Virus record (IMG/VR): IMGVR_UViG_3300049048_000108
Span: 1-49,430 of that record
Length of the DNA: 49,430 bases
DNA from: a virus
Direction: 5' to 3' (one strand)
The notes below the pieces were generated by a model. The model worked only from the letters and a program-made list of their open reading frames with translations, was not told the origin of the DNA and did no database searches. Both the position numbers and the translations under genes were made by a program. Shown one piece after another: positions 9,761 through 48,833 of the stretch (position 1 is its first letter; every line of letters starts with the position of its first letter).

Positions 9761-11595
9761 CAGAAGTCCACCTGGAAGAAGCGGAAGCTCACCAGGTACT
9801 CCACCGTGCCGTCGGCGTAGGCCAGCGGCGTGTCGGTGACGTCGAGGATCACCACCCGCATGACCTTGTCGACCCACACGAGCTTCAGCACCATGCCAGG
9901 GTGGTCCTTGAACCACTCCAGGTCCGTGAGCTGCTGGTCCGCCGAGACACCGGGCACGGTGTCGTTGAGGAGGACACCGGAGACCTCGCCCTCGTACCCA
10001 CGGTGGTTCTGCGTGACGAGCACGGGCGGCGCGTCGCCGAGCAGGTAGTGGATGGCCGACTCCTCGGTCCGCTCGGCTGCCACGTTCGGGTTGAACAGGT
10101 AGATGAGCCGGTCGTTGTCGGTCTCGGAGAGCGTGGTGGTGATGGGCTTGACGAGCCCAGCCACGGTCGGGTTGCCCGAGCTCACCACGCCGTTGACCTT
10201 CCGGGCCACGGACCAGGTGTGGTTGCGGCGCGGGCGCGCCTCGTCGTCGTGGTACACGTAGTGGGTGCCGCTCTCCAGCACGTCCACCGGGAAGACCTCG
10301 TCGACCGCCTTGCCGTTGCGGAGGATCACGTAGCTGTCCGGCGCCGTGGCGTCGTCCCACTCCAGCGTCATCCTCGACTGGTAGGTGTGGGTGGTCCCGG
10401 TGAAGCCGGTGACCGTGGCGACGGTGTTGCTGAGCTCGAAGGTGAAGTCCCGGAACGCCTCAACGTACGTGGGGTCATCGGGCACGCTGACGCGGTCGAT
10501 GGTGTCCCAGATGCGGACGATGAGCCGGTACACCTTGCCGACCTCGGTGAGCTTGCCCGGAGGCGGCGTCACGGAGGTCTCGGTGGACGTGATCTCGCCG
10601 CTGTTCCAGATGTACTTCTCGGGCGTCTCGGGCGTGGCGATGAGCACCTGGTACTTGAGCTGGGTGCGCCCGGTGAAGGTCCACGAGAAGGGCGGCGTCG
10701 GCTCCGTGACGAAGTCGTTGGGGTCGGCTGCCGGGTTGGTGATCGTGAGGGTGCCCTTGGAGGTCCTCGTGAAGCTCGCCGGGTCGCTCCAGCCCGACGG
10801 GATCCCTGCTCCGTCGACGTTCTGGACGCGCCACCAGAGCACGGCGTCGGCGGCGAGCCCGCCGTACGCGGTGTCGTCGAGGTCCCACTGCGGAATGGTG
10901 GCGGGCACGTTGGCGTCCAGGAGGTCCGGCGTGTTGGCGTCCGCCAGGGCCTCGGTGCTGAACAGGCGGAGGTTGGCGCTCTGCATGGTCTGGTCGCCAG
11001 CCGGGTCCACGAAGTCCCAGCGGAGGGTGGGCTTGGCGATGGAGACGGCGAGACCGTTGTCCGGGATGAGGACCTCGGGCGTGTCGGGCGCGTCGCTCCA
11101 GGTGATCTCCAGCATCGGGCGGTACTGGCTCGGACCCTGCGCCGAGTACAGCCACTTGGCGGCAGCACCCGTGGCGCTGATGCGGAAGCCGTACCACGGA
11201 GCTCCGTCGGCCACCTGCTGCATCACGTCGGTGACGTTGAACTCCCAGGCGGTGCCCGCAGCCGCGCTGGTCTTGGCCACGGTCTTGGTAGCTCCGGTCA
11301 CGCCGGGCTTGTTGTTCCAGTTGACCCGGTTGACGCTGAACTTCGAGGAGAGTCGCTGCAGGGACAGGGTGACCGCGCCCGCGAAGCCCGCGCCCGAGTA
11401 GACCACCAGGCGCGCGTTGAGGATCGTGGTCTTCGACATGCCCGACGGCACGCCGAAGTAGATGTACCCGAAGCGCGTGTTCGCCGAGCTTCCGTCAGCG
11501 AGGTACAGGCGCTGAGCGGTGCCGTAGTTGCGGCTGGGATACTTCTCGGACACGTAGGTGTCCGAGGCGTTCCTCAGCGGGATCGGATCACCCAT
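9760..11595 (-). CDS. Minor tail protein with DNRLRE domain
   Basis: 611 aa, directly after the tape measure and overlapping it by one base. Residues about 8-170 match a DNRLRE-type (carbohydrate-binding, family 96-like) domain: ASDTYVSEKYPSRNYGT, RFGYIYFGVPSG, WNNKPG, and a closing YRPMLEITW. Two to three fibronectin-III-like segments follow, with FSWTFTGRTQLKYQVLIA and WDDATAPDSYVILRNG. The C-terminal about 130 residues (LIYLFNPNVAAERTEES to FRFFQVDF) resemble a distal-tail-type domain. It likely links the tail tube end to tip proteins and may bind cell-wall glycans. A DNRLRE domain at the N-terminus of a distal-tail-position protein is unusual. Confidence 0.7.
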   Translation of the reverse strand: MGDPIPLRNASDTYVSEKYPSRNYGTAQRLYLADGSSANTRFGYIYFGVPSGMSKTTILNARLVVYSGAGFAGAVTLSLQRLSSKFSVNRVNWNNKPGVTGATKTVAKTSAAAGTAWEFNVTDVMQQVADGAPWYGFRISATGAAAKWLYSAQGPSQYRPMLEITWSDAPDTPEVLIPDNGLAVSIAKPTLRWDFVDPAGDQTMQSANLRLFSTEALADANTPDLLDANVPATIPQWDLDDTAYGGLAADAVLWWRVQNVDGAGIPSGWSDPASFTRTSKGTLTITNPAADPNDFVTEPTPPFSWTFTGRTQLKYQVLIATPETPEKYIWNSGEITSTETSVTPPPGKLTEVGKVYRLIVRIWDTIDRVSVPDDPTYVEAFRDFTFELSNTVATVTGFTGTTHTYQSRMTLEWDDATAPDSYVILRNGKAVDEVFPVDVLESGTHYVYHDDEARPRRNHTWSVARKVNGVVSSGNPTVAGLVKPITTTLSETDNDRLIYLFNPNVAAERTEESAIHYLLGDAPPVLVTQNHRGYEGEVSGVLLNDTVPGVSADQQLTDLEWFKDHPGMVLKLVWVDKVMRVVILDVTDTPLAYADGTVEYLVSFRFFQVDF

Positions 11596-14267
11596 CAGCC
11601 CATCCTTCCGTGTGCACCGGCGAACCGGTCGTTGCCTTCGACGACATCCTCAGCCAGGCCACGGATCCACGCACGACCGTTGCGGTCGATCGTGAGGCGT
11701 CCCTCCACGAGCCGGGAGCGACCCGCCTGGGTCGCGGTACCCACGGAAGCTCCTCGGCCGCGAGAGGGCGCCTCGTGGAGCGAGGACAGCTTGCCTGCCT
11801 TGTAGACGCGGTCGAGCTGGCGCCAGAGCTGGCGCAGCGGGATGACCGCCTCGTCCTCGCCCGCCTCGGCCACCCAGGCCATGGTGGGCGCCGTGAGCAC
11901 ACCACCGTGGGCGAGCTGCGGGATGTCGGGCGGGTTGATGGAGACCGAGCCGGGTCCGGGCGGGTTGATCGTGAACTCCAGCGCCGAGTTGATCGAGCCG
12001 ATGGCGCCGTTGAGGAGCCCGCGCACGAAGTCCCAGATGTTGCCCGCGATGCCGCTGATGAGGCCAGCGGCGTTCTTGATGCCCTGGACGAACTGGTCGA
12101 TGATGAACTTGCCCGCCGCGAGGAACAAGCTCCCGAGCCCTCGGAGGAGACCGGGGATGGCCTTGACGCCTGCGACGATGACGCCGCCGATGCCCTTGAT
12201 GATGGCCCCAGCGGTGCTGAGGAACCCACGGAGGATGGAGCCCAGCACGCCCACCACGCCACGAAGGATCTGCTTGACACCCTCCCACGCCTTCGACCAG
12301 TTGCCGGTCAGCAGCGCGGTGAAGACCTTGATCACACCGATGATGATGTTGAGGACCCCACGGAGGACACCGAGCGCGGTGCGGATGGCGGTGCCGAGCA
12401 CCTTGACGAAGGTGTTGAAGAACACCGAGCCGACCCGGACCAGCAGCGGCAGGATCGTGCTCACGAACAGGTTCGCGAGGATCTTCAGCACGCTGATGAG
12501 GAACTGGATGGCCGGGCTGCCCATGATGGCCTGGAACAGGCCCACCAGCGAGCTCACGAGGTCGCCGACCACCGGGATGATCCGCTGGATGGCAGGCCAG
12601 ATCTGGTTGAAGGCGCCCTGCAGCGCGCCGAGCGCCGACGTGGCGGCGCCCTGGATCACCGGCAGGACCTCCGACATGAAGACCGCCGCGAGCTGCTGGA
12701 TGAAGCCGATGAACCGCTGGACGTAGGGCATCGCGGCGACGAAGAGCTGCTGCATGAACTGGCCGAACCGCTGCAGGTACGGCAAGCTCGCCTGGAACGC
12801 CTGGAGGAGGAACGCGCCGAACTGCTGGAGCTTCGGCACCAGGTAGTCGATGGCGCGCACCAGGTAGTCCCGGAGCACGGCGCCGATCTGGTTGACGATC
12901 GTCCGGAACCGCTCACTGTTCTTGTAGAAGTACACGAAGGCAGCGACCAGCGCGGCGATGGCGGCGACCACGAGGATGATGGGACCGGTGAACAGGAGCA
13001 TCCCGGCGCGCATCGCCATGAACGCCGCCTTGAGCTTGAGGAAGCCACCGACGAGGAGGAGCCCGGCGCTCAGCAGGGCCAGGAAGACCGTGACCGCCTC
13101 CAGCACCGGACCGGGCAGCTCCAGCACGACGTTGAGGACGCCGGTGAAGCCGTCGACCACGGTGCGCAGCAGGCCCAGCAGCGGCGTGCCGATCTGGATC
13201 ATGAGCGTCTCCAGGGAGCCCTGGAGAGCTTCGAGCGAGCCCTGGAAGTTGTCGAGCCGGGTCGCCGAGACCTCAGCGGCGGTGACCTTGCTCATCGAGT
13301 CGGCCATCTTGTCGAAGCCCTTGGACCCGTTGTCCGCGAGGATGGCGGCAGCCCGGATGCCGTCGGCGCCGAACAGGGTCTGGAGGGTCGCCTGCTTCTG
13401 GGCCTTGGTCATGCCCTCCAGGGAGCCCGCGAGGACACCGCTGATGTCGCTGAGGCTCTTGAGGTTGCCTTCGGCGTCGTAGAAGGCGTTGCCACCGTCC
13501 TCGGTGACGATGCCGAGCTCCTTCATGGCGTCGGCGGTCTTCTTGGTGTCCGGCTGCAGGTTCATCAGCATGGACTTGAGCGACGTACCGGCGTCGCTGC
13601 CCTTGATGCCCGCGTTGCCCATCAGGGCGATGGCAGCGGCGGTGTCGTCGAAGGTCGCGCCCGCGAGGTTGGCCACGGCGCCCACCTGGGACAGGGACAT
13701 CCCGAAGTCACCGACGTCGATGGCGGAGGCGTTGGCCGCGCCCGCGATCTTGTCGGCCACGTTCACCATGTCCTCGGCGGACAGGTTGAACTGGTTCATG
13801 GCGTTGGAGGCGATCGTCGCCGCCTCGGGCATGGAGACCTCGCCTGCGGCGGCGAGGGCGACGGTGGCGTCCGCAGCTCCGCCCATCACGTCCTGGACGC
13901 TGAGGCCCGCCTTGACGAGCTCCTCGATGGCGCTCGCGGACTCGCTCGCGCTGAACGCGGTGTCCTTGCCGAGCTGGAGGCTCTTGTCCCGGAGCTGCTC
14001 CATCTCCGCAGCGGAAGCTCCCGAGACCGCCTGCACTGCGGACAGGCGCGCCTCGAAGTCGGCGGCGCTCTTGACGGCGAGGCCCAGGCCACCCGCGATG
14101 ACCGCTCCAGCGGTCGCGAGCTGCCCGCCAGCCTTGCTGGTACGGGCAGCCGCGTCGTCCGCTGCAGAGCCGGTCGCTCGAAGATCCCGGCTGGCCTGGT
14201 TGGCGCCGTTGCCGTTGTACTCGATCTCGATGACACCGCGTGCGGTTCCGAGGTTGTAGTCCGCCAC
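11595..14267 (-). CDS. Tape measure protein
   Basis: 890 aa, GTG start at 14267 behind a GAAGGG site. Residues about 85-330 match the TP901-type phage tail tape measure core (AAEMEQLRDKSLQLGKDTAFSASE, GDFGMSLSQVGAVANLAG). The centre (about 380-760) alternates hydrophobic helices such as AVTVFLALLSAGLLLVGGF, as expected for a protein ejected into the membrane. The end has a GGVLTAPTMAWVAEAGEDEAVIP segment common in this family. At roughly 1.5 angstroms per residue it predicts a tail of about 130 nm. Its place after the tail chaperones is canonical. Confidence 0.92.
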   Translation of the reverse strand: MADYNLGTARGVIEIEYNGNGANQASRDLRATGSAADDAAARTSKAGGQLATAGAVIAGGLGLAVKSAADFEARLSAVQAVSGASAAEMEQLRDKSLQLGKDTAFSASESASAIEELVKAGLSVQDVMGGAADATVALAAAGEVSMPEAATIASNAMNQFNLSAEDMVNVADKIAGAANASAIDVGDFGMSLSQVGAVANLAGATFDDTAAAIALMGNAGIKGSDAGTSLKSMLMNLQPDTKKTADAMKELGIVTEDGGNAFYDAEGNLKSLSDISGVLAGSLEGMTKAQKQATLQTLFGADGIRAAAILADNGSKGFDKMADSMSKVTAAEVSATRLDNFQGSLEALQGSLETLMIQIGTPLLGLLRTVVDGFTGVLNVVLELPGPVLEAVTVFLALLSAGLLLVGGFLKLKAAFMAMRAGMLLFTGPIILVVAAIAALVAAFVYFYKNSERFRTIVNQIGAVLRDYLVRAIDYLVPKLQQFGAFLLQAFQASLPYLQRFGQFMQQLFVAAMPYVQRFIGFIQQLAAVFMSEVLPVIQGAATSALGALQGAFNQIWPAIQRIIPVVGDLVSSLVGLFQAIMGSPAIQFLISVLKILANLFVSTILPLLVRVGSVFFNTFVKVLGTAIRTALGVLRGVLNIIIGVIKVFTALLTGNWSKAWEGVKQILRGVVGVLGSILRGFLSTAGAIIKGIGGVIVAGVKAIPGLLRGLGSLFLAAGKFIIDQFVQGIKNAAGLISGIAGNIWDFVRGLLNGAIGSINSALEFTINPPGPGSVSINPPDIPQLAHGGVLTAPTMAWVAEAGEDEAVIPLRQLWRQLDRVYKAGKLSSLHEAPSRGRGASVGTATQAGRSRLVEGRLTIDRNGRAWIRGLAEDVVEGNDRFAGAHGRMG

Positions 14268-14291: not shown

Positions 14292-15171
14292 TCACAGCTT
14301 CACGGGTCCGGCTCCCTTGGAGGAAACGGTACCGCTGCCACTGGCCACCGGATCCCTGAACTGCTGCTTGCCGCCGAGCCACTTCGCGATCACCCGCTGC
14401 CTGCGCCCGTTGGCCTGCGACTTGCTCTTGGCGCCCTGCTCGGCCTCGGCGAGCTCGGCGTCAAGCTGGGACCCGAAGAGCCAGCACGCGCGGTCGAAGC
14501 TCCACGCGGTGACGGCGTCCTGGATCCCATAGAGCTCACTCGGCCTGCACCTGTACGCCTTCGACAGGCGCCAAGCCTCCCACAGCTTCTCCGAGTCCGC
14601 TACGAAAGGACTCCAGGTCGCGGGTCCCACCCACGACGAAGTTGAAGATGAACATCTTGTCGACGAGGTCGATCATGTCGGCGTACACCACGCCGCTCTG
14701 GCGCCGCGTGATGTCGTTGGGCGTCATGTGGACCTCGGGCTTCACGACGCAGTGGCAGACCACCTTGTCGATGACGTGGGTGACCTCCGCGAGGCCCTCC
14801 GTGTCGCTCATCAGCGAGTGCATGTCGATCTCGCTGGTCTCGGGCTCGCCCGCCTTGCCCTGCACCCGCTTGAGGTGCTTCTCGTTGACGATCTGCGACA
14901 GCGAGTCGACGTTGTGGAGGACCCCACTCTTCATGAGGCCCTCCATGCCGGGACGCCGGACCAGGCAGAGCTGGCCGGACGGCACGGTGAGGTCCTCCAT
15001 GCCGCCGACACCGCCCGAGAGCCAGGCGTCCGGCGCGTACTTGGAGGTCGGGTCCTCGACGGTGGGGATGGGGTCGGGCTGAGCCGAAGCTCGTGCCGAG
15101 CTGGCGCGCTTGGTGGTCTTCCGAGCGGGCTGGCGGTCGGCGGGCTGCTTGCGAGTGGTGCTGGACGGCAT
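14292..15171 (-). CDS. Tail assembly chaperone, +1 frameshift form
   Basis: Predicted about 292 aa: read 15171 down to 14605, then shift +1 and read 14603 down to 14292. The second frame is open from 14672 and encodes VADSEKLWEAWRLSKAYRCR, then PSELYGI, a sequence style typical of actinophage gpT-like extensions. Its only in-frame start (GTG 14630) lacks a ribosome site. The shift must be +1 (or -2), not the common -1. The long form joins tape measure to tube subunits during tail assembly and is absent from virions in known systems. The exact slip site is inferred. Confidence 0.75.
14536..15171 (-). CDS. Tail assembly chaperone (short form)
   Basis: 211 aa zero-frame product. The first about 50 residues are Lys/Arg/Ser-rich; residues 60-211 form the conserved body (GQLCLVRRPGMEGLMKSGVLHNVDSLSQ, VCHCVVKPEV, VYADMIDLVDKMFIFNFVVGGT). 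It corresponds to the gpG-type chaperone that binds the tape measure and recruits tail tube subunits. It lies between the major tail protein and the tape measure, as usual. A second open frame (14292 to 14672) overlaps its end and has no ATG or ribosome site of its own, indicating a frameshifted long form. Confidence 0.85.
   Translation of the reverse strand: MPSSTTRKQPADRQPARKTTKRASSARASAQPDPIPTVEDPTSKYAPDAWLSGGVGGMEDLTVPSGQLCLVRRPGMEGLMKSGVLHNVDSLSQIVNEKHLKRVQGKAGEPETSEIDMHSLMSDTEGLAEVTHVIDKVVCHCVVKPEVHMTPNDITRRQSGVVYADMIDLVDKMFIFNFVVGGTRDLESFRSGLGEAVGGLAPVEGVQVQAE
14604..14613 (-). promoter_or_regulatory. Candidate +1 frameshift site
   Basis: Minus-strand order is GAG TCC TTT C: an SD-like GGAG (14614-14611) lies three bases before the rare Phe codon TTT (14607-14605). 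A +1 slip moves the Phe tRNA from TTT to the better-paired TTC (14606-14604) and enters the gpT-like frame at GTA. SD-like sequence three bases upstream of a slippery pyrimidine codon is the arrangement of the bacterial prfB +1 site. An alternative slip is GGG to GGA at 14628-14625. Confidence 0.55.
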
Positions 15172-15199: not shown

Positions 15200-15748
15200 T
15201 CAGGCGATGGCGGTGGCGTTCTCGTTCTGGACGAACTCGTAGAGCACGTCCTCCTCGCCGGTGACCAGGGACGGCAGCGCCGCGCCCGAGCCGCTGGTGA
15301 GGAAGAACGAGCCGTCGGAGAACTCGCCCTCGATGTTGCCGGTCACGCGGCAGCGCGGGAGGCGGCAGTGCACGTCGCCGCCCGAGTCGCTGATGACCTG
15401 GCCCTCGACCTGGAAGAAGGGACGGGCGTCCGTCACCTTCTTGGTGAAGGTCTTGACGATGTTGGGCGTCACGCCGGACTCGACGATCGTGCCTCCCGCC
15501 ATGACCTGCAGGGCCTCGAAGCTGAGGCCACCGGCCTCCAGGTCCCACTCGACCGAAGCACCCTGGCCGCGCGTGGTGACGACCTTGTCGTCACCGCGAA
15601 GCTCGGTGAACTCCTCGGCCTCGGAGAAGCTGAAGGTCCGGGCGTTGGGGAGGTCGACCGCATCGCCGAGCGTGGTCGCGCCTCCGTTGGTGTACGGCGT
15701 GAGCTTGACGTCACGCAGACCGTACGGCAGTGCCGTTCCGAGAGGCAT
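15200..15748 (-). CDS. Major tail (tube) protein
   Basis: 182 aa; ATG 15748 follows AAGGGGAGGTCTC. An in-frame longer start at 15802 is rejected because it lacks a ribosome site and overlaps the upstream gene more. The sequence is beta-rich, with LRGDDKVVTTRGQGASVEWDLE, GGLSFEALQVMAGG and VYEFVQN-like terminal strands, characteristic of siphophage tube proteins. It stands directly before the tail chaperones. It polymerises around the tape measure to form the tube. Confidence 0.85.
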   Translation of the reverse strand: MPLGTALPYGLRDVKLTPYTNGGATTLGDAVDLPNARTFSFSEAEEFTELRGDDKVVTTRGQGASVEWDLEAGGLSFEALQVMAGGTIVESGVTPNIVKTFTKKVTDARPFFQVEGQVISDSGGDVHCRLPRCRVTGNIEGEFSDGSFFLTSGSGAALPSLVTGEEDVLYEFVQNENATAIA

Positions 15749-15932
15749 GAGACCTCCCCTTCCTGGTTGGATCCTTGAACTGGCGGGTGTCCACCAGCTC
15801 ACCTGTGGTGGCGTCGAAGCGGTGAATCACCACGACGCCTGGGCCTGCTCCGCAGAACCGCGAAGAGCACTTGACCTCGATGACGTTGTCACCGAGCTCG
15901 CCGTGCTTCTTCGAGGCGCATCGCAGGTCCAC
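15711..15932 (-). CDS. Small Cys-containing (Com-like) protein
   Basis: 73 aa, GTG start at 15932 behind GGAGGG, overlapping the major tail gene by 38 bases. The pattern MDLRCASKKHGELG, then VIEVKCSSRFCG resembles the Mu Com-type zinc ribbon found in small phage proteins (R-C ... I-E-V-K-C-x-x-x-x-C), with three clear Cys and nearby His. The C-terminus is basic (TRKGRSHASRNG). Possible roles are RNA or DNA binding, or translation control of the tail genes. The overlap with the tube gene start could couple or limit tube protein translation. Confidence 0.6.
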   Translation of the reverse strand: MDLRCASKKHGELGDNVIEVKCSSRFCGAGPGVVVIHRFDATTGELVDTRQFKDPTRKGRSHASRNGTAVRSA

Positions 15933-20080: not shown

Positions 20081-20914
<834 letters not shown>

Positions 20915-20971
20915 CTGGACCTCCTGGTCTCTGTCTCGATCACGGTTCGGTGATCTGCTGAGCAGCATACC

Positions 20972-43695: not shown

Positions 43696-43890
43696 ATGGC
43701 TGAAGAGACTGTGGAGCTCCACAACTGCACCGTGCTCATGGCGTCGGGCGACACCGACGAGTGGGTGGACATCAAGGACGCCGTGATGGAGGTCGACCTC
43801 GGCGGCGCCCTGATGATCGTGGGCAGCGACGACAAGGTCGCCGCCATCTACGCGCCGGGCATGTGGATGAAGGTGGAGTACGACCAGTGA
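43696..43890 (+). CDS. Hypothetical 64-aa acidic protein
   Basis: 64 aa; ATG 43696 behind GATGAGGAACC. It is beta-rich: VELHNCTVLMASGDTDEWVDI, then DAVMEVDLGGALMIVGSDDKVAAIYA. It could be a small OB- or SH3-like fold. It overlaps the modification cluster start (GTGA at 43887). No family recognised. Confidence 0.6.
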   Translation: MAEETVELHNCTVLMASGDTDEWVDIKDAVMEVDLGGALMIVGSDDKVAAIYAPGMWMKVEYDQ

Positions 43891-44786
43891 GCCTGAACCT
43901 GGAGATGGCGCTGACGTACCTCGACTTCGTCACCGAGCGCCACCGCATCTGGGAGGCGCGCCAGCGCGGCGAGGCCCAGCCGTGGACCAAGGACCCCATC
44001 CTCGCCAGCCGGAAGTTCACCAACGTCTTCCGGGTGCTGGACCCCGGCTCGCAGTTCGTGTTCAAGCTGGAGAGCGACGACCCGACCGAGACGCTGATGC
44101 GCCTGTTCCTGTACCGGCACACCAACCTCCCGAGCGCGTGGGAGCACGTGGCGGGCGAGCTCGGCGAGTGGCCCTCCCTGGACAACCTCGCTGAGGTCGA
44201 GCTGGTGTGGAAGCTCCACCGGGACAACGGCAACCGGGTCTTCTCCAGCGCGTACATGGTGTACCCGCAGAGCTCGGTGAAGGGCACCGACAAGGTCGAG
44301 TCCATCATCGACCTGACCCGGCGCCTGTTCGTCAGCGGCAAGCGGGTGGCGTACGACTTCCTCAACGCCACCAGCCAGGCCGACCGGTTCGCCGCGCTCC
44401 GCACCAACAAGGGCGTGGCCGACTTCATGAGCATGCAGATCCTCACGGACTTCGGGTACACCCGGCACGGCGCCGACGTCGAGGACCAGTTCGTCGTGGC
44501 CGGGCCTGGCTCCAAGCGCGGCGCGGCGCTGGTGTGGCCCGAGCTCACTCCTCGTGAGGTCATCCGCTGGGCGCAGGAGGCGGTCCACGGGCTGCCCGAC
44601 TGCCCGGTGATCGAGCCGCACGACGGCGTGCTCCGGAAGCCCTCTGCTATGGACATCCAGAACACCTTCTGCGAGTTCAGCAAGTACGTGCGGTACCTCC
44701 ATCGTCCGTCCCGAGAGCAGCCGTACCGACCCGCCCACCCCAACGTAGCATTGGCACCGGTCCTGCCGGGCCACTGGAACCGCTGA
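43887..44786 (+). CDS. hmdU-DNA-kinase helical-domain/AADT-like protein
   Basis: 299 aa; GTG 43887. The N-terminal pattern ALTYLDFVTERHRIWEARQRG, then QPWTKDPILASRKFTNVFRVLD resembles the helical domain seen with 5-hydroxymethyl-dU DNA kinases and the related amino-acid:DNA transferases (formerly alpha-glutamyl/putrescinyl thymine pyrophosphorylase); I recall this signature (PWT-x-DP-x-L...F-x-NV-x-R) from those families. Later helices include DKVESIIDLTRRLFVSGKR and FMSMQILTDFGYTRHG. In hmdU-kinases it is usually fused to a P-loop domain; here the P-loop protein is separate at 48231. It probably positions 5-hm-dU in DNA. Family call from memory of sequence style. Confidence 0.65.
   Translation: MSLNLEMALTYLDFVTERHRIWEARQRGEAQPWTKDPILASRKFTNVFRVLDPGSQFVFKLESDDPTETLMRLFLYRHTNLPSAWEHVAGELGEWPSLDNLAEVELVWKLHRDNGNRVFSSAYMVYPQSSVKGTDKVESIIDLTRRLFVSGKRVAYDFLNATSQADRFAALRTNKGVADFMSMQILTDFGYTRHGADVEDQFVVAGPGSKRGAALVWPELTPREVIRWAQEAVHGLPDCPVIEPHDGVLRKPSAMDIQNTFCEFSKYVRYLHRPSREQPYRPAHPNVALAPVLPGHWNR
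44745..44757 (+). promoter_or_regulatory. Promoter-like word GTAGCATTGGCAC
   Basis: TAGCAT (44746-44751) inside the 3' end of the preceding gene would start transcription about 43 bases before GTG 44801. It is 12 of 13 identical to the word at 40666. Confidence 0.45.
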
Positions 44787-44800
44787 GAGGAACCGCAACC

Positions 44801-46429
44801 GTGTACCACAACCACGTCTTCAAGGACATCACCGAGGGCCTGCCGAAGCTCCTGGCCGAGCTGGAGCAGCACGGCGAGGAGGTCGGCAGCCGCGCCGGGC
44901 GCGTCAGGGAGCTCACCCACGTGGGCATCACCCTGACCGAGCCGTGGCGCCGCGAGCTCCTCGTCGAGGCCCGGAAGCCCAACCTCGCTGCGCAGATCGC
45001 CGAGACCATGTGGGTCCTGGCCGGGCGGAGCGACATCGAGTTCCTGAGCCACTACCTCCCGCGCGCCGCCGACTTCTCGGACGACGGCAAGACGTGGCGC
45101 GCCGGGTACGGTCCGCGCCTCCGTGGCTGGCCTCCGTGTGAGCAGAGTGAGCCGATCGACCAGCTCCGCACGGTCTTCGAGCTCCTCAAGCGCGACCCGC
45201 TGTCTCGGCAGGCGGTCGCGAGCATCTGGGACCCGGCGCTGGACTACCGCGCCAGCAAGGACATCCCCTGCAACAACTGGCTGAGCTTCTCCTCGCGCCT
45301 GGGCCACCTGGACCTGCACGTCGCCATCCGCTCCAACGACGCCATCTGGGGATGGAGCGGCATCAACGCCTTCGAGTGGAGCGCGCTGCAGGAGATCATG
45401 GCTGCCCTGCTGGGGATCTCCGTGGGCGGGCTGCACTTCTCGACGACGAGCTTCCACCTGTACGACCGGCACTGGGCCAAGGCCGACAAGATCATCGGCG
45501 CCAACGAGGGTCCGGTGGACCCGGCGTGGGACAGCCCGCGCTTCACCGTCGACGAGCGCGCCGCTGACCGGTACGCCGACCGGCTCGACTGGTTCGACCA
45601 GCTCGTGATCGACTGGTTCGCCATCGAGCAGCTCATCAGGGAAGGGATCCCGGCGCACGAGGAGGCGGTGGACAACTTCCCGGAGCCGATGCTGCAGAGC
45701 TGGCTGCGGGTCATCCAGTGGTGGTGGACCAGCGAGCGCGAGTACCTCGCCCGGCTGGAGGGCTGCCGCCTGGAGCGCGCGGCGTCGTACGCCGTGCAGC
45801 CGCCCGAGCGCGACACCGTCGAGCTTCGCGCCGACGACCGCGTGGTCCGGCACCTGCGCCTCGCGGTCGAGCCGACCGACGACGACCACGAGCCGAGCGA
45901 CTTCCTCACCCAGCTCTGCCAGCTCCACCTGGAGAAGGAGGCGGCGTACGGCGGCTCGTGGAAGAAGCGCGGCGAGATGCTCGGCATCATGGCCAACATC
46001 GCCCGCAAGGTCGACCGGCTCATCGGCGGCGAGACCGCCGACGAGACCAGCGCCGACACCGCTGGTGACCTCTTCGTGTACCTCGCGAAGTACCGCACCT
46101 GGCTGTCGGACCAGGGCCTCGGACGCCTGTCGGCGCTGGAGGATCTGGCCGAGCACGCCAAGCACGCCAACACCTACATGGAGCAGGTGGAGGAGTGGAT
46201 GGAGGGCGAGTACGACCGGCAGGAGTTCAACGCTGCTGGGCTCGCCGCCACCCTCACCAGCGACTTCGACGTGCTGGAGCAGGAGGTCCTCGCCAAGCGC
46301 GCCGACCGCTTCGAGCTCGTCGACTCCATGGCCAAGGACGCCTACCTCCTCGCCCGGATGCTCTGGGACCACGAGGCTGCCCTCCGTGAGGACCTGGGCG
46401 ACGACTACCGTGGAGCCGACGTTGACTGA
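44801..46429 (+). CDS. TS-like dUMP hydroxymethylase fused to Nmad1-like domain
   Basis: 542 aa; GTG 44801 behind GAGAGGAACCGC. Residues about 20-300 have the thymidylate synthase fold: GRVREL, ASIWDP, KDIPCNNW with the catalytic-type Cys157, IRSND (residues 176-180), an Asn near 189 and HLYDRH (His219/Tyr221). Retention of the Asn favours a uracil substrate over cytosine, hence dUMP hydroxymethylation (or methylation). Residues about 365-435, FLTQLCQLHLEKEAAYGGSWKKRG, NIARKVDRLIGG, resemble Nmad1/DUF1599, a nucleotide-modification-associated domain. The C-terminus is helical. One extra residue between Asp180 and Asn189 versus E. coli ThyA is odd. It is central to the proposed pathway. Confidence 0.75.
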   Translation: MYHNHVFKDITEGLPKLLAELEQHGEEVGSRAGRVRELTHVGITLTEPWRRELLVEARKPNLAAQIAETMWVLAGRSDIEFLSHYLPRAADFSDDGKTWRAGYGPRLRGWPPCEQSEPIDQLRTVFELLKRDPLSRQAVASIWDPALDYRASKDIPCNNWLSFSSRLGHLDLHVAIRSNDAIWGWSGINAFEWSALQEIMAALLGISVGGLHFSTTSFHLYDRHWAKADKIIGANEGPVDPAWDSPRFTVDERAADRYADRLDWFDQLVIDWFAIEQLIREGIPAHEEAVDNFPEPMLQSWLRVIQWWWTSEREYLARLEGCRLERAASYAVQPPERDTVELRADDRVVRHLRLAVEPTDDDHEPSDFLTQLCQLHLEKEAAYGGSWKKRGEMLGIMANIARKVDRLIGGETADETSADTAGDLFVYLAKYRTWLSDQGLGRLSALEDLAEHAKHANTYMEQVEEWMEGEYDRQEFNAAGLAATLTSDFDVLEQEVLAKRADRFELVDSMAKDAYLLARMLWDHEAALREDLGDDYRGADVD

Positions 46430-47345: not shown

Positions 47346-48234
47346 CCACCTGCACATCGAGGGCATGGGGATCCTGGGGTCCATGCTGGCCCGGCGCTGC
47401 CACGAGGAGGGCATCCCCTTCACGTGGAACGACACGCGCGAGCAGTTCGTGGCCTGGCCGGTGAGCACCGGGCTGGCCTACCCGGACGGCGACCCGATCA
47501 ACCAGCGCGGGCTGCGCCGCTGGCACGAGGTCCTGGCCAGCGACCTCATCGCCGACGAGGCGACCACGGCGCCGTACCTGTTCGCCCACAAGAACCACCC
47601 GCACGGCGGCAAGCAGGGAATCGCTCACGACTATGGGGTCCTCCGCATGAGCAACGAGCTCGCGGTGTCCCTGAACCCGGTGGCCTTCGTGGAGCGGACC
47701 CGCGAGGCGTTCGCTGCGCAGGAGCGGTCCGAAGCTCCTGACAGCGCCACGGTCGTCGTGTGCCACACCACGCCCGAGCGCGGCGACGGGTACATGTGGG
47801 GATGGGTCGGGCGCGTGACCTTCGACCTGCCGGACGAGGTCGCCGCCGACCTCCTCGGCGAGCAGCCCGCGCTGTACGCCAAGGCCCACCGGTTCAACCT
47901 CACGTACGCCTACCCGATCCCTGGCACGGGCCAGTGGTGGGCGGGCTCTGTTCTGCAGCTCCAGAGGGAGCCGCGCGTGGCCGAGCCGGACCGCCTGATG
48001 AAGCTGTACGAGGAGTGGAAGGCCAACGCGGGTGAGCTCCTCGGCATCCGCAACATCATGCTCGACGAGCTCGGGCAGGGCTGGCGCCCGCGCGGCAAGG
48101 GCGGCGTCCACGGTGACTTCGAGCTCGCCGAGAAGCACGGCCACCGCTGGCTGATGCCGGTGATGCCCACCGACGGTGTCCGGCGCGGCTGGCTGGTCGT
48201 CGACGACTTCCTGGACCGCTGGAGCCTGCTGTGA
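47338..48234 (+). CDS. FAD-binding oxidoreductase/lyase-like protein
   Basis: 298 aa; ATG 47338 overlaps the transferase gene by 8 bases. The N-terminus is a Rossmann dinucleotide motif HIEGMGILGSMLARRCHEEG (G-x-G-x-x-G at 9-14), followed by IPFTWNDTREQFVAWPVSTGLAYPDGD as in glycine-oxidase-like (DAO-type) flavoproteins. The C-terminal half has ALYAKAHRFNLTYAYPIPG and GWLVVDDFLDRWSLL. Published work on thymidine hypermodification includes flavin-dependent lyases that act on the installed amino acid. I infer a similar trimming step here, possibly leaving an aminomethyl group. Confidence 0.65.
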   Translation: MSDHLHIEGMGILGSMLARRCHEEGIPFTWNDTREQFVAWPVSTGLAYPDGDPINQRGLRRWHEVLASDLIADEATTAPYLFAHKNHPHGGKQGIAHDYGVLRMSNELAVSLNPVAFVERTREAFAAQERSEAPDSATVVVCHTTPERGDGYMWGWVGRVTFDLPDEVAADLLGEQPALYAKAHRFNLTYAYPIPGTGQWWAGSVLQLQREPRVAEPDRLMKLYEEWKANAGELLGIRNIMLDELGQGWRPRGKGGVHGDFELAEKHGHRWLMPVMPTDGVRRGWLVVDDFLDRWSLL

Positions 48235-48833
48235 CCCGCGCGCTGTACGTCCTCGGCGGCGCGGGCGCGGGCAAGTCCACGTTCATGAGCGAGCTGCTCG
48301 ACGAGCTGCTGGCCGGTGAGGACATGGGTGAGCTGGAGGACCTGTGGAGCAAGCGGAACGCCAAGGCGCTCGTCACGCTTCGCGGGCACCGGCTGTTCGC
48401 GCCCGACGGCACCGCGCCGGGCCTGTACCTCGGCTGCTGGCGCGAGAGCTTCCCTGGCACCGATGGCCTGGACCGCGCCAGCTCGGCGACCGGCGTGGAC
48501 TGGCTGATGAGCCCGGACGTGGAGCTCCCGGAGTTCATCGTGGCGGAGGGCGCCACGCTGGCCACGCGCCCGTTCCTCGGCGCGCTCGCGGCCACCACCG
48601 AGCTCCTGGTGGTCCACCTGCACGCGCCGGACGACGTCAAGCGTGAGCGGTTCGCCTCGCGCGGCTCGGACCAGGCTGAGAGCTTCTGGAAGGGCACGGC
48701 CACCCGAGCGGCCAACCGGTACGCGGAAGCCTGCGAGAGCGGCGTCTCCACGCTCTCCGTGGACACCAGCGACCCGGTGGCGTGGGAGGTTGCCCTGGAC
48801 CTGTCCATCACGCACGTGATTGGCAGAAAGTAG
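48231..48833 (+). CDS. P-loop kinase, candidate 5-hmdU DNA kinase
   Basis: 200 aa; GTG 48231 (GTGA). Walker A: YVLGGAGAGKST (residues 6-17). The signature LYLGCWRESFPGTDGLDRAS near 65-85, then FIVAEGATLATRPFL and LLVVHLHAP, SRGSDQAESFW, fits the P-loop kinase of 5-hydroxymethyl-dU DNA kinases (R-x-x-F-P-G-T-D type). It would phosphorylate the hydroxymethyl group in DNA to activate it for amino acid transfer. It lacks the usual fused helical domain, which is encoded separately at 43887. It is the last gene of the modification cluster. Confidence 0.7.
   Translation: MTRALYVLGGAGAGKSTFMSELLDELLAGEDMGELEDLWSKRNAKALVTLRGHRLFAPDGTAPGLYLGCWRESFPGTDGLDRASSATGVDWLMSPDVELPEFIVAEGATLATRPFLGALAATTELLVVHLHAPDDVKRERFASRGSDQAESFWKGTATRAANRYAEACESGVSTLSVDTSDPVAWEVALDLSITHVIGRK

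Follow-up and report, generated by a model that had tools for sequence, protein, structure and literature searches.

A probable programmed +1 frameshift at TTT_CGN in the tail-assembly chaperone genes of a siphophage and its relatives

The virus record IMGVR_UViG_3300049048_000108 was analysed over its whole length of 49,430 bases, which we call the window, and carries a siphophage structural operon encoded on the minus strand. Within this operon two overlapping reading frames resemble the tail-assembly chaperone parts gpG and gpT, and an earlier note, made from the letters alone, had proposed that they are joined by a +1 frameshift like that of the release factor 2 gene, prfB. We find that a programmed +1 frameshift at TTT-C very probably yields two tail-assembly chaperones, gpG (211 amino acids) and gpGT (292 amino acids), from one start, as judged by sequence comparison. 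The features of the locus, in the order in which they are transcribed, are as follows.

15802..15200, minus strand: major tail protein, directly upstream (PHROG 4971, 1.8e-72)
15171..14536, minus strand: gpG-like tail assembly chaperone, 211 amino acids, the zero-frame product (open reading frame, ORF; PHROG 4336, 3.9e-30; Pfam DUF7391, 1.7e-34)
14614-14611, minus strand: GGAG, a possible weak auxiliary Shine-Dalgarno-like stimulator with 3-nucleotide (nt) spacing, clade-specific (9 of the 13 closest relatives)
14610-14602, minus strand: TCC_TTT_CGT, identical in sequence to the influenza PA-X shift sequence UCC_UUU_CGU (PMC3498833)
14607-14601, minus strand: predicted +1 shift site TTT_CGT_A (TTT-C in 46/46 and TTT-CGN in 43/46 non-redundant relatives; the coding frame switches here)
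14604-14536, minus strand: overlap between the site and the end of gpG, under constraint in frame +1 but not in frame 0 (69 nt from TTT to stop in most relatives)
14603..14292, minus strand: gpT-like part after the shift, VADSEK...VKL, 103 amino acids plus stop (PHROG 6778 tail assembly chaperone, 1.6e-7; tblastn matches to 138 phage records; ratio of nonsynonymous to synonymous substitution rates, dN/dS, 0.30-0.32 in frame +1)
join of 15171..14605 and 14603..14292, minus strand: predicted gpGT fusion, 292 amino acids, 31.9 kDa (computed; a joined coding sequence is annotated in relatives)
14267..11595, minus strand: tape measure protein, directly downstream (PHROG 1533, 4e-107)

Annotated relatives share this arrangement, with G/T lying between the genes for the major tail protein and the tape measure; matching phage genes carry the label 'tail assembly chaperone', and chaperone-family homology is present in both parts (PHROG 4336 and 6778). 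The locus thus has the genome position of a gpG/gpGT pair, homology in both of its parts and, on comparative evidence, a second ORF probably joined by frameshifting near the end of gpG. Frame arithmetic confirmed the earlier note in placing the gpT frame, which is open over 14672..14292 (minus strand), at +1 from gpG, a net shift of -2 leading to the same frame, and not at -1. A -1 shift was rejected as a candidate: that frame is closed by TAG at 14602-14600, has no homology to T and encodes nothing recognisable. The site reads CTG GAG TCC TTT CGT AGC, with TTT at 14607-14605 and the next C at 14604, so that the slip tetramer TTT_C spans 14607-14604; the zero frame continues from there to the gpG stop codon, TGA, at 14538-14536.

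Relatives were collected from annotated phages of seven actinobacterial host genera (Microbacterium, Gordonia, Mycobacterium, Arthrobacter, Micrococcus, Nocardia and Curtobacterium) and from IMG/VR, the viral contigs of which were searched with small alignments. The resulting set of 46 loci comprised 42 computed to be non-redundant at 80% identity in gpT and four added from further genera. Most of the annotated phages were retrieved by a gpT query beginning after the junction, which kept them free of selection for TTT; for the metagenome loci the gpT queries began at F. The junction codon was TTT, followed by C, in all 46 loci, and the hexamer was TTT-CGN in 43 (TTT-CGC in 24, TTT-CGT in 18 and TTT-CGG in one), the others being TTT-CCT, TTT-CTG and TTT-CTC, once each. 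The E-site codon varied freely (ACG in 14, GAC in six, CGA in four, TCC in three, and others). Elsewhere in the first 42 loci, Phe was encoded by 95 TTT versus 330 TTC codons, and the conservation of TTT-C is far beyond chance. Within the window TTT is very rare, as had been noted before, accounting for two of the 218 Phe codons in 17 minus-strand structural genes, with one of the two being the shift site itself, and for one of the four Phe codons within gpG; TTTCG occurs a single time on the minus strand across the entire window. Two scans for relatives in bacterial genome contigs found none, which fits, as weak evidence, a mainly lytic lineage.

The coding frame switches at the same codon. 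Upstream of the site, nine close relatives gave a dN/dS of 0.36-0.42 for frame 0 against 1.4-2.4 for frame +1; from the site to the gpG stop it was 1.64 in frame 0 and 0.32 in frame +1, and past the stop it was 0.30 in frame +1. The lack of constraint in frame 0 suggests that the gpG tail past the site is merely a spacer. In three separate groups the fastest-changing codon position moved from zero-frame position 3 to position 1 across TTT-CGN, and in those groups the six bases themselves were nearly unchanging. Alignment of the gpT proteins begins at F1, and eight residues further on comes a Trp that is invariant. In roughly one in four of the 46 loci a stop closes the +1 frame 6-9 nt before the Phe codon, and 22 of the 46 lack any start codon in the stretch that runs from the upstream stop to the site, which excludes separate upstream initiation and further-upstream slips in those phages. 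Comparing the site in related phages had been proposed in the earlier note, and its placement of the slip at TTT-C is borne out both by this conservation and by the switch of coding frame.

That the slip occurs in the P site, how often it does so and what each product does are inferred, as follows. The tRNA-Phe (anticodon GAA) in the P site would leave UUU, with its G:U wobble, for the +1 codon UUC, where it would form a G:C pair. The resulting gpGT would consist of gpG residues 1-189 followed by 103 residues, reading ...DLESF-VADSEK... across the junction, in sequence agreement with the ESF-VADSEK joint predicted earlier, and would give DLESFVADSEK as its tryptic junction peptide. The majority of ribosomes would stay in frame and, 22 codons past the site, terminate to give gpG. 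On the model of phage lambda, gpG would coat the tape-measure protein and gpGT would link the tape measure to the tail-tube subunit (PMC5009743). The earlier suggestion that ribosomes pause at the rare TTT does not give the best reason for slipping there, as TTT has already been decoded in a P-site model and what matters is the better pairing of tRNA-Phe with UUC. Neither a stop codon nor a Shine-Dalgarno sequence is conserved at the site, and strong RNA structure is lacking as well: no downstream stimulatory structure stronger than in shuffled sequences was found, with a mean z of -0.58, five of 46 loci below -2 and the window at about -1.1 to -1.3.

The same dicodon is known from eukaryotic viruses. 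In influenza PA-X, which shifts +1 at UCC_UUU_CGU, the junction peptide has been sequenced by mass spectrometry, the -2 product was not found and a P-site UUU-to-UUC model is favoured (PMC3498833). The phage and influenza sites share nine identical bases, the +1 direction, a sense CGN codon in the A site, the absence of apparent downstream structure and the UUU-to-UUC model, and in the window, too, the +1 ORF begins at a zero-frame UUU_C whose A-site codon is CGN (14607-14602). They differ in that influenza uses a eukaryotic ribosome and an unrelated gene, and in that the UCC E-site codon is highly conserved in influenza but free in the phages; because it is free among relatives, the nine-base identity is probably coincidental beyond UUU_CGN. 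Plant amalgaviruses use UUU_CGN as well (Nibert et al. 2016, PMC5052127), likewise inside the overlap of two ORFs, with the second ORF at +1 and a fusion product, although these are plant RNA viruses whose fusion is a polymerase rather than a tail chaperone. On the prediction of Firth et al. 2012, UUU_C together with a CGN A-site codon defines a class of +1 sites, for which they listed eukaryotic viruses only (PMC3498833), and a preference for CGN that tRNA supply does not explain has been remarked on in both systems (PMC3498833, PMC5052127).

Among phages, lambda gpG/gpGT and other tail chaperones agree with this locus in gene order, in making two products from a single start, in shifting near the end of G and in their presumed role (Xu et al. 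2004, cited in PMC5009743), but most of them shift by -1 on X_XXY_YYZ, and Mu by -2, whereas here the predicted shift is +1 on TTT_CGN; the second ORF does not lie in the -1 frame, where a canonical X_XXY_YYZ site would have it. The Listeria phages PSA, A118 and A500 also shift +1 within a structural operon, but do so on a Pro codon, at CCC_UGA or CCC_UCC, in major tail or capsid genes (PMC5009743).

Several observations weigh against a conserved +1 slip at TTT_CGN. The chance of finding TTT-C in 42 of 42 relatives has a log10 P of about -28, or about -16 for 22 lineages less than 60% identical in T, values that overstate the significance, since both frames overlap at this codon and the metagenome queries start at F; where both frames encode Phe, the invariance of TTT is partly forced. 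Neither CGT nor CGC is rare here, with 41 and 188, respectively, of 392 Arg codons, so codon rarity does not explain why the A site would be slow, and the overlapping proteins, which have Arg in G and Ala or Val in T, may account for some of the preference for CGN. The distant Onyinye/Leopard lineage, excluded from the 46 loci, is the only clear exception to TTT-C: it carries AAA_AGT at the junction, and its gpT frame opens right after a stop. To judge from its sequence, AAA_AGT could be a +1 slip site in its own right, with perfect re-pairing of the P-site Lys tRNA and AGN in the A site. Finally, several relatives have GTG, a possible start, directly after TTTC, at the place where the window has GTA.

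That GTG bears on the reading adopted in several annotations (Troll4, Patience, Predator, LilyPad and others), in which an internal start gives gpT as a product of its own. Some of the relatives concerned carry GGAG about 7 nt before the GTG, which makes a minor free gpT conceivable there; stand-alone T genes are annotated in relatives, and the window has an in-frame GTG at 14630. This last codon qualifies the claim in the earlier note that the gpT frame has neither an ATG nor a ribosome site: there is indeed no upstream ATG, and by eye no Shine-Dalgarno sequence precedes the GTG, so that its broader point, the want of a credible separate start, is supported. The 22 relatives without any start codon between the upstream stop and the site speak against separate initiation, as does the constraint on the T frame from the first codon past the site, and the annotated downstream starts would in several relatives remove the conserved N-terminus with its invariant Trp. 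We therefore regard separate translation of gpT as highly improbable. A slip at GGT-GGG-A (14631-14625, minus strand), which the earlier note had held out as a place where relatives might shift, is the explanation to which we attach the least weight, virtually none. The sequence GGTGGGA is present and common to close relatives, but from there to TTT the +1 frame is unconstrained (dN/dS 1.4-2.4), many relatives have a +1-frame stop 6-27 nt upstream of the TTT site, and the switch of coding frame falls at TTT-CGN in three independent groups.

There remain two ways of reaching the +1 frame at or near the same codon. In a prfB-type shift, the chief cause would be pairing of the internal Shine-Dalgarno GGAG with 16S rRNA, and TTT would be decoded slowly. 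As the earlier note had said, GGAG does lie three bases before TTT (14614-14611), the prfB spacing, and it does so in the window and in 9 of the 13 closest relatives, where it may help; mean anti-Shine-Dalgarno pairing upstream of the site was -3.4 kcal/mol versus -2.1 kcal/mol at controls (P 0.0005). However, the other groups do not have GGAG at this spacing, one Gordonia phage carrying it at a shifted position, most other lineages have no Shine-Dalgarno sequence at that spacing and still have TTT-CGN, and in the close clade GGAG mainly reflects conserved Leu/Met-Glu codons. The site shares with bacterial prfB a +1 P-site slip and, in the window, the upstream GGAG; it differs in its slip codon, TTT_C in place of CUU_U, in its A-site codon, CGT, which is a sense (Arg) codon rather than a stop, in the absence of a Shine-Dalgarno sequence conserved about 3 nt upstream and in having no autoregulation. 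The label 'prfB-like' accordingly does not fit, and a prfB-type mechanism is unlikely. A -2 shift, as used by Mu gpGT (PMC3498833), satisfies the same frame arithmetic and would give the junction peptide DLESFFVADSEK instead of DLESFVADSEK. It is scarcely credible here, as tRNA-Phe cannot re-pair 2 nt back, on CCT, whereas the conserved TTT_C re-pairs perfectly in +1.

A joined G/T gene has been deposited for Haunter, TinyMiny, Wollypog, Fowlmouth, Papyrus, Cuke and Madruga, hence frameshifting in some of these phages is already annotated. A separate gpT gene is annotated in Troll4, Patience, Predator, Damien, Suzy, DumpTruck, Gibbin, LilyPad, Kurnik, P3.1, Triscuit and Shrew; in a number of annotated relatives the start given to gpT falls inside or downstream of its conserved region, and a join at TTT_C would correct these. 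No description of TTT_CGN in phages was found in the literature searched, although key older work lay outside its coverage and may mention the motif. A 1997 study in E. coli reportedly dealt with UUU-CGG/CGU dicodons, and an earlier mention is possible there. According to the PRFect paper, no motif for forward shifts in general has been identified (PMC10274946).

Elsewhere in the window, a gene with a 5-hmdU DNA kinase helical domain (PF18723, 3e-51) adjoins a thymidylate-synthase-like gene (PF00303) at 43761-46429 (plus strand), and a P-loop nucleotide kinase lies at 48231-48833, which together suggest a hypermodified-thymidine DNA pathway. A scaffold-like ORF at 20081-20968 (minus strand) has long aspartate runs (DDDDD).

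The occurrence of UUU_CGN in unrelated genes of phages, influenza and amalgaviruses is a notable parallel. On balance we lean, by a little, towards UUU_CGN being a general +1 signal that would work on bacterial and eukaryotic ribosomes alike, without a stop codon, a Shine-Dalgarno sequence or RNA structure, and that actinobacterial siphophages of one large and mostly lytic lineage would have kept to set their gpG:gpGT ratio, with the A-site CGN acting through something besides rarity. For annotation, the single rule of joining at TTT_C would fit all of the relatives, most of the annotated ones that we fetched having a separate gpT with a guessed start. With its deep conservation and the same dicodon, this phage family also opens a second domain of life to tests of the effect of CGN, by bacterial genetics and by in vitro translation.
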